A stretch of DNA of 45,168 nt, taken from positions 1 to 45,168 of the forward strand of contig JAFUVB010000050.1 in assembly GCA_017471245.1 (NCBI GenBank), in the 5' to 3' direction. This DNA comes from Prevotella sp. Lineage in GTDB: Bacteria; Bacteroidota; Bacteroidia; Bacteroidales; Bacteroidaceae. This document shows, piece after piece, positions 3,400 to 45,168 of this stretch. The notes beneath the pieces are model-generated. The model did no database searches, was not told the DNA's origin, and saw only the letters and a list, made by a program, of their open reading frames with translations. Positions within the stretch are counted from its first letter, which is position 1. Each line of letters opens with the position of its first letter. The translations under genes and the position numbers were made by a program.

Positions 3400-4761
3400 T
3401 TAAATACCCGTATAGTTAGACGGCGTGATGGCCATCAGCTCTGCCTTCACGGCATCAGAGACATCGAGCGTCTGGATGAACTCGTGAATGGTCTGCTCGG
3501 TCATGTGACGATTGGTGCGCGTGAGCGCCTTCAGTGCCTCGTAGGGATGGGGGTAAGCCTCTCGGCGCAGGATGGTCTGTATTGCCTCTGCCACCACAGC
3601 CCAAGTGTTGTCAAGATCCTCTGCCAGCTTTGCCTCGTTGAGAATCAGCTTGCGCAATCCCTTGAGCGTGCTCTGGATGGCAATCATGGCATGACCCATC
3701 GGCACTCCCACATTGCGGAGCACGGTGGAATCGGTGAGGTCGCGCTGCAGACGGCTCACGGGCAGCTTCTGGGCGAGGAACTGGAGAACGGCATCTGCCA
3801 TACCCATGTTGCCCTCGGAGTTCTCGAAGTCAATGGGGTTCACCTTATGGGGCATGGCACTCGACCCTACTTCGCCTTCCTTGATCTTCTGCTTGAAATA
3901 CTCCATCGAGATGTACATCCAGAAGTCGCGGTCGAGGTCGATGACGATGGTGTTGATGCGGCGCATGGCATCAAAGAGGGCTCCCAGCTGGTCGTAGTTG
4001 CTGATCTGCGTGGTGAACTGCTCGCGCACCAATCCTAATCGGTCGCTGACGAAGCGGTTGCCGAAATCGCGCCAGTCGTATTCGGGATACGCCACATGAT
4101 GGGCATTGAAATTGCCTGTGGCCCCGCCGAACTTCGCCGTGATCTCCACCTTCTTCAGTTCTTCCAACTGACGGCTGAGACGATAGACGAACACCTGCAC
4201 CTCCTTGCCCAGACGGGTGGGAGAAGCCGGCTGCCCGTGCGTCTTGGCAAGCATCGGCACGTCTTTCCACTGTTCGGCATACTCGTGCAGCTGCTCAATG
4301 AGCTCCTGCACCATGGGGATGAACACATCGTGGAGCGCCTCCTTGATCGACAGTGGGACGCTGGTGTTGTTGATATCCTGCGATGTAAGACCGAAATGGA
4401 TGAATTCCTTCAGAGGCGAGAGTTGAGGATTGGCGGGTGTTACGATGGCATCGTACTTCTCCTTGATGAAATACTCAACGGCTTTGACATCGTGGTTGGT
4501 TATCTTCTCGATATCCTTCACACGCTGTGCATCCTGAACGGAAAAGTCGGCATAGATGGCGCGCAATGCCGGGAACAAAGCATGGTCGAAACTCTCTAAC
4601 TGCGGCAATGGCAATTCGCACAACGCGATAAAATACTCTATCTCCACTCGCACGCGGTAGCGTATCAATGCATATTCTGAAAAGTAATCAGCCAACCGCT
4701 CTGTTTTTCCTCTGTAGCGCCCATCAATAGGTGAGATGGCGGTCAATAAATCAAGATTCAT
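3400..4761 (-). CDS. purB: Adenylosuccinate lyase
   Basis: This enzyme cleaves adenylosuccinate to AMP and fumarate, and SAICAR to AICAR and fumarate, in purine synthesis. The 453-residue protein begins MNLDLLTAISPIDGRY, the E. coli PurB-type start, and matches that subgroup in length. The fumarase/aspartase superfamily signature GSSAMPHKVNP is at about residues 299-309 and carries the flexible-loop catalytic serine. THGQPASPTRLGKE near 174-187 includes the conserved His. The gene has its own promoter (TTG, 20 bp, TATCTTTG at 4827-4797), with a short leader. It is transcribed toward rluB and asnS, an order I recall as common in Bacteroidales. Confidence 0.97.
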   Translation of the reverse strand: MNLDLLTAISPIDGRYRGKTERLADYFSEYALIRYRVRVEIEYFIALCELPLPQLESFDHALFPALRAIYADFSVQDAQRVKDIEKITNHDVKAVEYFIKEKYDAIVTPANPQLSPLKEFIHFGLTSQDINNTSVPLSIKEALHDVFIPMVQELIEQLHEYAEQWKDVPMLAKTHGQPASPTRLGKEVQVFVYRLSRQLEELKKVEITAKFGGATGNFNAHHVAYPEYDWRDFGNRFVSDRLGLVREQFTTQISNYDQLGALFDAMRRINTIVIDLDRDFWMYISMEYFKQKIKEGEVGSSAMPHKVNPIDFENSEGNMGMADAVLQFLAQKLPVSRLQRDLTDSTVLRNVGVPMGHAMIAIQSTLKGLRKLILNEAKLAEDLDNTWAVVAEAIQTILRREAYPHPYEALKALTRTNRHMTEQTIHEFIQTLDVSDAVKAELMAITPSNYTGI

Positions 4762-5051: not shown

Positions 5052-5126
5052 TGGGCGTTGACGGATTCGAACCGCCGACCCTCTGCTTGTAAGGCAGATG
5101 CTCTAAACCAGCTGAGCTAAACGCCC
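5052..5126 (-). tRNA. tRNA-Val (anticodon TAC)
   Basis: The minus strand folds as a cloverleaf. The acceptor stem pairs GGGCGTT with AACGCCC plus discriminator A. The D arm starts AGCTCAG, the anticodon stem pairs TCTGC with GCAGA around loop CTTACAA, and the T arm contains GGTTCGAATCC. The loop gives anticodon TAC, reading GTA (Val). CCA is not encoded, because the base after the discriminator is followed by A. Upstream is a consensus promoter (5176-5145) and downstream an intrinsic terminator, so it is a single-gene transcription unit. Confidence 0.95.
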
Positions 5127-5228: not shown

Positions 5229-5490
5229 TTTAAGAAGCAAGAAGCAAGAGGCAAGAAGCAAGAGGTTAGAGTTTTTTAGAGGTGAGAGGTGAGAAGATTA
5301 GAGAATACATTCGAGTACAAGCAGTATGCAGCAAGACATTTGTCTTAACTCCTTAACTCCTTCACTCCTTAACTCCTAAAAATGACAAGTAACAAGAAGC
5401 AAGAGAATAGAAATAAGAAGCAGGAGGTGTTTTTTAAGAAGCAAGAAGCAAGAGGCAAGAAGCAAGAAGCAAGAGGCAAGAAGCAAGAGA
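5229..5490. repeat. GCAAGAAG/GCAAGAGG repeats and TTAACTCC octamers
   Basis: TTTTTAAGAAGCAAGAAGC opens both a block at about 5228-5265 and a longer one at about 5431-5490. Both are built from the same words as the 188-404 element but in a single orientation. Between them lie a GTGAGAGGTGAGAAGATTAG stretch and four 8-mers (TTAACTCC, TTAACTCC, TTCACTCC, TTAACTCC) at 5345-5376. Confidence 0.8.
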
Positions 5491-5547
5491 ATAGAAATAA
5501 GAAGCAGTGTGCTGATATTGTGGCATGGAAGCGCCGCGATGGAACAG

Positions 5548-5701
5548 CAAATCAAGTTGATTTGCGCGGTAATTCAAATTGATTTGAAAAGTAATTCTTA
5601 TTGATTTGAAAAGTAAATCAATTTGATTTGCTGAGGTAAAGTGCCGCATTTGCTGAGGCAATGTGCCGCATTGATGACTCGAAAGTGCCGCTATGAATTC
5701 T
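5548..5701. repeat. 22 bp periodic array, seven units (array 1)
   Basis: Units begin at 5548, 5570, 5592, 5614, 5636, 5658 and 5680, a strict 22 bp period. Units 1-4 carry a near-palindromic AT-rich core of the type AAATCAATTTGATTT. From unit 5 the core changes to AAAGTGCCGCATTTG and CAATGTGCCGCATTG while the period is kept. Spacers between cores are GCGCGG, GAAAAG, GAAAAG, CTGAGG, CTGAGG and GACTCG. There is no coding potential. Confidence 0.9.
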
Positions 5702-5767: not shown

Positions 5768-5855
5768 TAAATTAATTTAATTTACTCAGCAATTTAATTT
5801 AATTTGCTTTTCAATTTAATTTAATTTGAACGGTAAATTAATTTAATTTACTTTG
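5768..5855. repeat. 22 bp periodic array, four units (array 2)
   Basis: Units begin at 5768, 5790, 5812 and 5834. The cores are AAATTAATTTAATTT or CAATTTAATTTAATTTG, separated by CTCAG, CTTTT, AACGG and CTTTG. It has the same 22 bp period as array 1 and a similar spacer vocabulary, in the complementary orientation. It starts 66 bp after array 1 ends. Confidence 0.88.
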
Positions 5856-22031: not shown

Positions 22032-22099
22032 TTCAATTCAGAAACTGCGGCTTTTTGAATTGAAAACTGCGAGTGTTTGCAATAAAAACTCGCAGTTTT
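22032..22099. repeat. Two overlapping inverted repeats
   Basis: TTCAATTCA (22032-22040) pairs with TGAATTGAA (22056-22064). AAAACTGCGAGT (22063-22074) pairs with ACTCGCAGTTTT (22088-22099). The two stems share two bases at 22063-22064, so they could be alternative or stacked hairpins. Confidence 0.7.
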
Positions 22100-22204
22100 T
22101 GGCACAAAAACTTTCACGAACTCATATTTCCTCATAAGTCAAACCAGCAACTTCCTGGAAATGAACCATATAACGGATTCTAAGAAATCGCTGAAAAACG
22201 GCTG

Positions 22205-43183: not shown

Positions 43184-43285
43184 TTATTTAACTTTATATA
43201 TATATTTAAGCAGAACGAACCATAACGCCGTTTTGGAGCCTCCGTCGCGGCTATTTCCATGCCCCGCGGAGACATTCTGCTTCAG

Positions 43286-43373
43286 CAAATCAATTTAATT
43301 TACCGCGCAAATCAATTTGATTTACTTTTCAAATCAATTTAATTTACTCAGCAAATCAAATTGATTTACTTTT
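43286..43373. repeat. 22 bp periodic array, four units (array 3)
   Basis: Units begin at 43286, 43308, 43330 and 43352. The cores are AAATCAATTTAATTT, AAATCAATTTGATTT, AAATCAATTTAATTT and AAATCAAATTGATTT. Spacers are ACCGCGC, ACTTTTC, ACTCAGC and ACTTTTC. CCGCGC, CTTTTC and CTCAG are the reverse complements of the GCGCGG, GAAAAG and CTGAG spacers in array 1, 38 kb away. Confidence 0.9.
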
Positions 43374-43455
43374 CCATTGCGGCGGTTCGGGGGAACGAAA
43401 ACGGCACTGCGGAGCAAGCAAAGAAGGTGTTTCAAAATACAGATATTCCTATATA

Positions 43456-43558
43456 AACAACGGATTTCACGGATTTTACGGATTTAAGTAATGCTGATGC
43501 AGAAACTTAAATAATCCGTAAAATCCGAGAAATCCGCAATCCGAGAAATCCGTTGTTG
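43456..43558. repeat. Long CGGATTT inverted repeat
   Basis: The left arm (43456-43489) reads ACAACGGATTTCACGG and continues with TTTTACGGATTTAAGT. The right arm (43504-43558) is its reverse complement, with two small insertions and one extra CGGATTTCT unit. The loop is about 14 bases. It lies 51 bp after the BspA-like gene stop and could act as its mRNA end. Confidence 0.8.
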
Positions 43559-43608: not shown

Positions 43609-45168
43609 CTATTCTTCAACTTCCTTCACCGTCCATCCCTCAGGGATGCCACTTTCGCCACTTGGCCATTCCACGCCTTTGGCTTTGATGAACTCGCCGG
43701 TTGAAGATACTCCGTAGAGCCAACGATATAAATAATCATCAGCAGAGATATCCGTTGCATAGCAAGTCACCTTTGATAGTTTATTGCAATTGAAGAACAT
43801 ACCGGAGTAGCAACCCTCTGCCAATGTAGTTGCAGGAAGCGCGGGTGTCTGAGTTAACGAGGTGCAACCGTAGAACATACCGGAGTAGCACTTCTTTGCC
43901 AATGTAGTTGCAGGAAGTGCGGGTGCCTGAGTTAACGAGGTGCAACCGTCGAACATACTGGCGTAGCAATATTCTGTCAATGTCGTTGCAGGGAGCTCGG
44001 GAGCCTGCGTTAACGAGGTGCAACCGTAGAACATTGTCGAGTAGCAATAATCTGCCAATGTAGTGGCAGGCAGTGCAGGAGCCTGCGTTAACGAGGTGCA
44101 TCCGCGGAACATGTCGTAGTAGCAACCATATGCCAATGTAGTTGCCGGGAGTTCAGGAGCCTGCGTTAACGATCTACAACCGGAGAACATGTTATAGTAG
44201 CAGGCCTCTGCCAATGTAGTTGCTGGCAGTGCGGGTGCCTGAGTTAACGAGCCGCAATACTTGAACATACCGGAGTAGCAAGATTCCGCCAATGTCGTGG
44301 CAGGAAGCGCAGGAGCCTGCTTCAACGAGGTGCAATCGTAGAACATAGAGGCATAGCAAAATTTTGTCAATGTCGTTGCAGGGAGTTCAGGAGCCTGCTC
44401 TAACGAGGTGCAACTGTAGAACATTTCGCTGTAGCAGTTATCTGCCAATGCCGTGGCAGGAAGCGCAGGAGCCTGCTTCAACGAGGCGCAACCGTAGAAC
44501 ATACCATAGTAGCATTTTAGTGCCAAGTCCGTTGCTGGGAGCAAAAGGCTCTTTGTGGGATGACTGAGCAGATTTTTATTACTGCAGAACAAGAATTGGA
44601 ATGCATGTTTCGCAACGGTTGTCTGCTTAGCAAAAGCGGTTGAGCTGACCAAGCTCATCACATTGCCGTAGACATAGCAGGGGGCAGAGAAGTTAATGCT
44701 TGTACGTTCTTCATAGCTTTTTGCATACGCACTGTTGTCACCATAGAGCTGCACCTTGTCGCCGGCAGCTGCCTTTATCTCAATATTTTCGTCACTGCCC
44801 GATGTTTTCTCTCCATCATTCAAGGAATACTGGATGGTGAGCTTGAACGGATTCTCGATGGTAATCGTTGCATCCTCCTTTGCCTCAACGGTGAGCGGAG
44901 TGGTGAGCGGATCAAACGTCGACTCCACCGGTATCGTTGCCGTGTAGAACTTGCCGATGTCGAAGCCTTTCTCCTTCACGCCCACGTATTCGCCGCCGTA
45001 CTCATCGGTGACGGTGAACGTGTAGGTGTCTGCATCCGGCGACTCGTTGCGCAGAGCCACCCATATATCATCAGTCGCTTCGTCAACTTCTGCCGTCACC
45101 TCGCCCTGCCGGTTGTAGGTCCTACTGTCGTCAAACGGGTTGTAGCGCTGCCAAAGCTTGCCGTCCTC
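43609..45168 (-). CDS. BspA-like surface protein with 26-residue repeats (5' end outside window)
   Basis: The frame stays open to the window edge: 23 further codons precede the first GTG at 45099 and encode EDGKLWQRYNPFDDSR, so the start is outside. The visible 519 residues contain beta-rich domains (VRL-type strands to about residue 170 from 45099). Ten tandem 26-residue repeats of the type LPATTLAESCYSGMFYGCTS follow (nt 44541-43762; the last is degenerate). The C-terminus (GEFIKAKGVEWPSGESGIP) is characteristic of these Bacteroidetes proteins. The repeats match the surface-protein 26-residue repeat (DUF285-like/BspA leucine-rich) group. Such proteins bind host or bacterial surface ligands, but this one's ligand is unknown. 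The signal peptide, if any, is not in view. Confidence 0.88.
   Translation of the reverse strand, partial: EDGKLWQRYNPFDDSRTYNRQGEVTAEVDEATDDIWVALRNESPDADTYTFTVTDEYGGEYVGVKEKGFDIGKFYTATIPVESTFDPLTTPLTVEAKEDATITIENPFKLTIQYSLNDGEKTSGSDENIEIKAAAGDKVQLYGDNSAYAKSYEERTSINFSAPCYVYGNVMSLVSSTAFAKQTTVAKHAFQFLFCSNKNLLSHPTKSLLLPATDLALKCYYGMFYGCASLKQAPALPATALADNCYSEMFYSCTSLEQAPELPATTLTKFCYASMFYDCTSLKQAPALPATTLAESCYSGMFKYCGSLTQAPALPATTLAEACYYNMFSGCRSLTQAPELPATTLAYGCYYDMFRGCTSLTQAPALPATTLADYCYSTMFYGCTSLTQAPELPATTLTEYCYASMFDGCTSLTQAPALPATTLAKKCYSGMFYGCTSLTQTPALPATTLAEGCYSGMFFNCNKLSKVTCYATDISADDYLYRWLYGVSSTGEFIKAKGVEWPSGESGIPEGWTVKEVEE
43762..44541 (-). repeat. Ten tandem 78 bp coding repeats
   Basis: A 78 bp unit repeats without a break across the BspA-like gene. 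Each carries a conserved CY-xx-MF-xxC-x-SL-x-QAP pattern with a variable pair before CY. Adjacent units share long identical stretches, so unit number could change by recombination or slippage. Confidence 0.92.

Follow-up and report, generated by a model that had tools for sequence, protein, structure and literature searches.

Dispersed intergenic arrays of palindromic units at a 22-bp pitch in Prevotella

Tandem palindromes are familiar from the OR and OL operators of phage lambda, in which 17-bp odd-centred palindromes lie a few base pairs apart and are bound cooperatively by protein dimers. The arrays described here are unlike these operators in that they occur in dozens of dispersed copies, with no recurrent neighbouring gene. 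Among dispersed repeats, REP and BIME elements are extragenic palindromes that form regularly spaced mosaic clusters, are species-specific and are reported to bind several proteins (PMC2817692, PMC3733652). BrickBuilt, a MITE-minisatellite of Porphyromonas gingivalis, has a 23-nt tandem unit and 19 dispersed, intergenic copies that break assemblies (PMC4596501). Within Prevotella itself, PINSR is described as an intergenic repeat of P. intermedia with 177 and 184 copies per genome and a 188-bp consensus, confined to one Prevotella lineage, without terminal inverted repeats, probably non-coding and with no function assigned.

The window analysed here is a stretch of 45,168 bp from a Prevotella sp. 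draft genome (3.73 Mb in 114 contigs, hereafter the source genome). At positions 43286–43368 it contains four 17-bp odd-centred palindromes, which start at 43286, 43308, 43330 and 43352 and thus follow one another in exact 22-bp steps. The array reads CAAATCAATTTAATTTA-ccgcg-CAAATCAATTTGATTTA-ctttt-CAAATCAATTTAATTTA-ctcag-CAAATCAAATTGATTTA, followed by ctttt, and its units have the form YAAATYAAWTTRATTTR, in which some of the Y/R pairs are not complementary. Tandem Repeats Finder returned the same array with a period of 22 and 4.0 copies, so the four units and the 22-bp period of the original prediction are borne out by direct reading and by the program alike. The spacers had been given as six letters; the words were right, but they are really 5-nt junctions plus one flanking base. 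Their announced recurrence in reverse complement elsewhere in the window was found in the four-unit array at 5548–5630 (plus strand, third unit degenerate), which has cgcgg, aaaag, aaaag and then ctgag. Beyond it, GC-type 22-bp units (GTAAAGTGCCGCATTTG CTGAG, then others) occupy 5636–5701 on the plus strand and are followed by a second four-unit array at 5768–5850 (minus strand, an orientation that is weakly assigned), 220 bp (10 × 22) from the first and in the same register. This second array shares ctcag and ctttt with the array at 43286 and has aacgg as its third junction. In the window as a whole, the core pattern with up to two mismatches on both strands was matched 24 times, against 0.19 expected in dinucleotide shuffles.

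What the original prediction missed is that the array at 43286 forms the middle of a ten-unit element at 43215–43434. When the flanks of the four-unit arrays (AT-type units) were set in 22-bp rows, GC-rich, variable palindromic units (NGAAANCGGCGNTTTGG AGCCT and similar) emerged in the same register. Stacking of 33 four-unit arrays of the source genome, out of 39 with at least three units, gave 10.2, 11.5 and 17.4 bits per row before the AT units and 7.7, 10.6 and 11.7 after them, with 2.7 and 3.1 bits in the rows next outward and about 1 beyond; for 25 of the 26 arrays of the close relative UBA4268, the values were 12.3, 11.7 and 14.8 before, 8.2, 10.6 and 9.3 after, and 2.6 and 3.8 outside. 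Since the information drops sharply beyond the six GC rows, the element consists of ten units in a 3-4-3 arrangement and spans 220 bp; stacking in both genomes revealed no shared sequence outside these ten rows. The complete element of the window, whose edges and register were taken from the stacked four-unit arrays (33 and 25), lies on the minus strand. In its own orientation, AT-type units 1 to 4, each a 17-bp odd palindrome, occupy 43352–43368, 43330–43346, 43308–43324 and 43286–43302, and are joined by J1 (43347–43351, word CTGA, minus strand ctgag), J2 (43325–43329, AAAA, aaaag), which is the centre of the four AT units, and J3 (43303–43307, CGCG, cgcgg). Three GC-type 22-bp units lie on one side at 43369–43434 (rows −1 to −3) and three on the other at 43215–43280 (rows 4 to 6). 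The earlier reading is thus refined in two respects: the junction words depend on position, and the AT arrays sit in the middle of a larger element of 3-4-3 layout. With the AT units masked, lag 22 remained the top-ranking lag in the non-coding DNA near the arrays of four genomes (the source genome, UBA4268, G331 and G466). For the window by itself, the first rank went to lag 9. Nearly identical, gapless copies of the window element, of about its full length, were found on contigs C45 (188 bp, 96.3% identity) and C79 (207 bp, 92.8%). The DNA around them differs from that around the window element, apart from a paralogue (about 79%) of the window's neighbouring repeat gene, which is found close to the copy on C79.

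The original prediction had envisaged a family present throughout the genome, with few spacer words and a preference for intergenic sites, and each of these traits is seen in the source genome. The exact core matched 127 times (45 + 82) across the whole genome and 328 times (159 + 169) with up to one mismatch, with 0 matches for the reversed-pattern control in both cases; these counts cover both strands, so that one symmetric unit may be counted twice. The 45 sequences that we read (the window, 33 stretches and 11 of the 14 in a further set) yielded 50 arrays, defined by at least three units in register, a definition that leaves out stretches such as L031, L037 and L047, and exactly four units were present in 42 of the 50. 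Off-register units beside these arrays amounted to two counts at 23 bp, which probably represent a single pair, at locus L059, viewed from both sides. The 162 junctions of the 50 arrays carry mostly AAAA (35), CTGA (28), CGCG (20) and CAAA (19), four oriented words that together cover 102 of them. An oriented junction rule, G-N4-GT on one strand (85) or AC-N4-C (51), fits 136 junctions, with 26 exceptions. Where an array has four units, AAAA occupies the middle junction in 27 of 42 cases in the source genome and in 17 of 21 in UBA4268. The bases that flank the junctions avoid complementarity (14 of 132, against 45 expected), which indicates that an ...ATTTG half and a GTAAAT... half meet at each junction.

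As to position, arrays lie outside open reading frames (ORFs, called by a simple longest-ORF rule) in 38 of 39 cases in the source genome, three of them at the end of a stretch, and in 26 of 26 in UBA4268, 10 of 10 in G615, 10 of 10 in G466, 12 of 12 in G331 and 16 of 18 in G586; the sole exception in the source genome sits within a 103-aa ORF that begins with TTG. Convergent, divergent and tandem gaps are all occupied; the array at 43286 stands upstream of a gene for an ABC-transporter ATPase. Among the 52 proteins that flank 26 loci of the source genome, no common family exceeded three members (thioredoxin-like) and no transposase appeared, in both cases among the 25 of 78 families listed. 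An array of regulon operators was rejected for want of a common flanking family within that list.

The arrays also have a bearing on genome quality, as several of those in the source genome sit at contig ends. Arrays occur within 200 bp of the start of contigs C31, C51 and C86, and the ends of two contigs (L031 at the end of C4, L037 at the start of C31) share 3185 identical bases that adjoin an array and probably represent one place on two contigs. Such contig ends are likely assembly breaks caused by the repeats. Several other repeats were noticed as well. ATCCGT-type repeats of about 9 bp adjoin the window array at 43460–43552, with similar ones beside other arrays of the source genome (L035, L036), and the gene at 43609–45099, whose paralogue accompanies the C79 copy, encodes a protein that is unmatched in Pfam and contains about nine repeats of 78 bp (26 aa). 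At 22042–22112 lies another non-coding repeat with a 22-bp period (AAACTGCGAGTTTTTGAAATAA) that lacks AT-type units, and a similar stretch is present in an array-free gap of contig C108 of the source genome. Tandem 7-bp repeats, AAGAAGC / CTTGCTT, stand between genes at 225–403 and 5232–5506 and constitute a separate repeat family, one member of which abuts an array copy in L045.

Comparison with relatives bears on turnover. The place of the window array is 90% identical in UBA4268 over 778 bp, and neither there nor in five other genomes was an AT core found within 700 bp past the aligned part; in UBA4268 an array does follow some 2.7 kb farther along (L117, around 3713–3820), so that displacement by inserted genes is possible at this place. 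Six UBA4268 arrays could be traced to the source genome: for three of them an array is present there next to the matching flanking DNA, a single flank being traced each time, and the other three correspond to gaps bounded by both flanks and without an array. At C64/L177, a place that is shared, 17–20 of 22 positions agree in the AT units and 7–15 in the GC units, while the DNA beyond the array stays highly similar, with a 1-bp offset. Since array positions differ between relatives, no single copy looks essential.

Beyond close relatives, the sequence of the units changes. The exact core matched 3 of 301 genomes of the family, two of them once, and a two-unit pattern with two mismatches matched 10 of 398 genomes of the genus. 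A sequence-only profile of 28 cores (A1, R1) at E ≤ 1e-4 detected 68 of 398 genus genomes (26 of 175 of good quality), under strict filters, with ten candidates scored per genome and many genomes represented by one to three matches. Across the order it reached 7 of 393 genomes, two of this genus and five weak, and six of seven loci from the five weak genomes were without a 22-bp palindrome array (22 of 32 pairs); the seventh, L223, holds an even-centred array built from another unit. All 20 profile-hit loci fetched from 13 further genomes, a sample selected from the listed hits, contained at least three units at pitch 22, a unit being counted from 13 of 17 positions upwards; AAATTCASTGAATTT, AAAACAAATTGTTTT and AAAATAAATTATTTT are examples of their cores. 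In several genomes one unit number prevails. UBA4268 has four units in 21 of 26 arrays; G331 has four in 8 of 12, the other 4 arrays having three; G615 has six in 6 of 10, with eight units in another 3 arrays and four in the last; and G466 has six in 7 of 10. The arrays of G586 have 3 to 9 units, with four in 9 of 18, and 2 of the 18 lie inside ORFs. GC-type flanking units of another sequence accompany the arrays of G615 and G466 too, and three of four loci in G639 show a 3+1+3 layout. In G056 the palindromes are even (TATTTTCATGAAAATA plus 6 nt) and stand in arrays of four. With up to three mismatches, the 22-mer of G056 occurs 62 + 65 times in that genome and 75 + 75 times in G092, with control counts of 0 and 1; G000, G639, G136 and G150 have two matches at most. 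Around 1499–1630 of locus L223 (G1004, from another family of the order) there are about six units of even palindromes with a 22-bp period (ACTCAGTGAACTGAGT and variants), unrelated in sequence, which perhaps belong to the same class outside Prevotella.

The pitch also emerges from a scan that is blind to sequence, in which four successive self-complementary 17-mers with at least 24 of 32 pairs were sought at periods 17 to 31. The sole period with hits was 22: three in the window, 35 in 33 loci of the source genome, seven in four UBA4268 stretches, three in G639 and one in G136, with no odd-centred hit in G056. With 16-mers added, seven genomes of the genus sampled by place (602,375 bp), two of which (G639 and G412) already had profile matches, gave seven hits at 22, one at 20 and none at other periods; the seven came from G056, G136 and G639 and all lay outside ORFs. 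Two genomes of other genera (120 kb) yielded no hits. The samples of G150 (80 kb), G299 (20 kb) and G412 (60 kb) held no array, so the class cannot be called universal, and 80 kb of G092 held none at pitch 22, though the pattern search gave 150 unit matches there. A looser threshold (23 of 32) brought single hits at periods 23, 30 and 31 as well, and repeatedly at pitch 33 (1.5 × 22), as expected for dyads about every 11 bp; the comparison set taken as array-free in this looser scan contained one array (L117).

What might such an arrangement be for? We tentatively propose, at somewhat less than an even chance, that the arrays are a BIME-like, dispersed intergenic platform on which a dimeric DNA-binding protein assembles, with a specificity that drifts from one species to another. 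Each 17-bp odd-centred palindrome would be the site of one protein dimer, and the 22-bp pitch, about two helical turns, would bring neighbouring dimers to almost the same side of the double helix, such that four, or up to ten, dimers could bind cooperatively and build a nucleoprotein block between genes. The putative binder may be a nucleoid organiser, an insulator or a BIME-type anchor that recognises the units, its specificity drifting along with the palindrome in each species, and copies may arise by recombination between arrays or by the copying of whole elements. Dyad symmetry, a rigid pitch, a constant junction length and a usual unit number fit cooperative dimer binding on double-stranded DNA. 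Covariation between symmetric positions bears on the same question. Among 66 pairs tested, pair 8/10 covaries in the GC units (z of 4.1 in the source genome and 3.6 in UBA4268); as this pair flanks the centre and could not form in a hairpin, it favours a double-strand over a single-strand reading, as one of 66 pairs. Pair 6/12 covaries in the AT units (z of 3.5) and in the GC units of UBA4268 (3.5), not in those of the source genome (0.6), and for most other symmetric pairs the covariation is near zero. Against the proposal count the variable unit number and the two intragenic arrays of G586, the shift of positions between relatives, the stray hits at other periods under the looser threshold, the samples without arrays, and the strong folding of the RNA, which would allow for a role at that level.

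Several other explanations have to be weighed against such a binding platform. An RNA-level element, in which units 1–4 and 2–3 pair into a long hairpin with an AAAA loop that is processed or protects mRNA ends, seems unlikely, even though the prevalent AAAA of the middle junction would suit a loop and the mean fold z is stronger on the element strand than on the other (−7.5 against −5.4 in 43 oriented arrays of the source genome; −6.5 against −4.8 in 16 of UBA4268). The window folds accordingly, with a z of −14.1 for the AT core on the element strand and, for the whole 220 nt, −6.2 on the element strand against −2.2 on the other; long-hairpin pairing on the element strand moreover prefers G-U over A-C (109:63 in the source genome and 50:27 in UBA4268, outermost pair excluded). 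However, palindromic, periodic units exceed what a long hairpin needs, the preference for wobble over C-A at position 6/12 (36:21 in the source genome) is reversed in UBA4268 (15:21), the 12 arrays of G331 cannot be oriented and fold alike on both strands (−7.7 and −7.3), and arrays occur in gaps of all three orientations. A long hairpin with the GC units as stem arms was rejected, because the GC flanks show no covariation as arms. An Rfam search of the window at the gathering score placed no structured-RNA family on the arrays, its sole match being a tRNA at 5052–5126. As for DNA shape, A/T tracts about every 11 bp raise the thought of intrinsic curvature from phased A-tracts, and from wedge parameters a strong bend is predicted for the G615 and G466 arrays (L137–L156, core AAATTAASTTAATTT; end-to-end 0.52 against 0.88 in shuffles). 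The elements of the source genome (0.91), UBA4268 (0.92) and G331 (0.95) nevertheless show no excess over single-base shuffles (0.90–0.91), for which reason curvature was rejected as a shared function and is, as a general explanation, scarcely credible. CRISPR arrays consist of identical repeats and unique spacers of about 25–40 bp; the 5-nt junctions drawn from a small reused set led us to reject this assignment as well.

The remaining alternatives concern how the copies spread. A non-autonomous mobile element of the MITE or BrickBuilt type, containing tandem repeats and mobilised in trans by a transposase, would account for element-length copies at unrelated, intergenic loci, for a lineage-specific abundance and for positions that differ between relatives, but we consider it unlikely. 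No terminal inverted repeat can be told apart from the palindromic units; the left and right flanks of one element do not pair better than swapped flanks, with a mean rank of 0.58 in the source genome, 0.54 in UBA4268 and 0.54–0.65 in four other genomes (0.5 being random), and the end units are themselves palindromes that could serve as short inverted ends. The three array-free orthologous gaps that were read show no clean empty site or target duplication, which divergence may hide, and the listed flanking families contain no transposase. Of eight paired arrays, moreover, five lie at distances that keep the 22-bp register (220, 198, 198, 176 and 176 bp), and the other three miss it by one base (241, 109 and 89). 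Spread of a classical REP/BIME by a RAYT (Y1 tyrosine transposase) is very unlikely. The arrays share extragenic palindromes, high copy number, mosaic clusters and species-specific sequence with such elements, and Y1_Tnp (PF01797) occurs once in the source genome and three times each in G466, G586 and G615. Its distribution nonetheless does not follow that of the arrays: it is present in 4 of 9 genomes with the AT core, against 2 of 9 others, most of them drafts in which the gene may be missed; UBA4268, G331, G443, G456 and G593 have the AT core and no Y1_Tnp match; some of the other group bear arrays as well (G005, G056, G092); and G056 and G092, of two contigs each, combine arrays with no PF01797 match. 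Dependence on a RAYT found no support on these grounds, and the REP tag (GTAG, CGTC or complements) occurred once, in 1 of 50 arrays of the source genome with 5 nt on each side included, other species being inspected by eye only. A neutral, fast-homogenising satellite, functionless and generated by slippage and gene conversion, appears unlikely. The C64/L177 place, where poorly matching GC units stand beside a well-matching flank, is consistent with unit exchange, and the unit number of G586 ranges widely; against this, unit number is otherwise characteristic (four in 42 of 50 arrays of the source genome, for instance, and six in most arrays of G615 and G466), the pitch stays at 22 while junction words vary, and the same pitch recurs with unrelated palindromes in other genomes.

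A bolder form of the protein-platform reading, possible if doubtful, is that geometry rather than sequence is under selection, the 22-bp pitch, the species-typical unit number and a new palindrome in each lineage being the footprint of a fast-evolving chromosome-organising protein. That the palindromes differ widely while the pitch and, in several species, the unit number stay constant points to recognition by a multi-dimer complex, a reading under which every species should have its own cognate protein. It is usually by their sequence that intergenic repeats of bacteria are recognised; here spacing seems to be the feature that is kept. If this were true, the arrays would parallel, in bacteria, the co-evolution of satellite DNA with the proteins that bind it, and would offer a way into chromosome organisation in a genus that is common in the gut, mouth and rumen.

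Set beside the described systems, the arrays are dispersed intergenic palindromic repeats that stand outside the named families, PINSR being compared by description only. No description of 22-bp palindromic arrays in Prevotella appeared among the papers listed by a literature search in which preprints fell outside the coverage and subscription papers were sparsely covered. With REP/BIME the arrays share extragenic palindromic units in high copy and in clusters (50 arrays in the source genome), but GTAG/CGTC occur at chance level (once in 50 arrays), there is no consistent RAYT, and the arrays have a strict pitch of 22 bp together with a usual unit number and order of junctions. With BrickBuilt they have in common a short tandem unit, intergenic dispersal, a Bacteroidota host and the breaking of assemblies (PMC4596501). 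That element, however, has a leader and a tail, IS5-type terminal inverted repeats and a non-palindromic unit, AGAYCATARTATCCTCTCRTRTG, which is repeated 1 to 22.8 times in an element (PMC4596501), as opposed to 22-bp palindromic units, four of them in 42 of 50 arrays, in the source genome. The original prediction had recognised no described element with these traits; judged by description, PINSR may be one. It resembles the arrays in being intergenic, present in high copy and restricted to a lineage, and its 188 bp are close to 8.5 × 22 bp, but it is described as one consensus, and section 3.4 of that description mentions no 22-bp palindromic units. PINSR is the nearest described element in the genus, and, if the reading of a multi-dimer complex is true, the arrays offer a possible explanation for this unexplained repeat.
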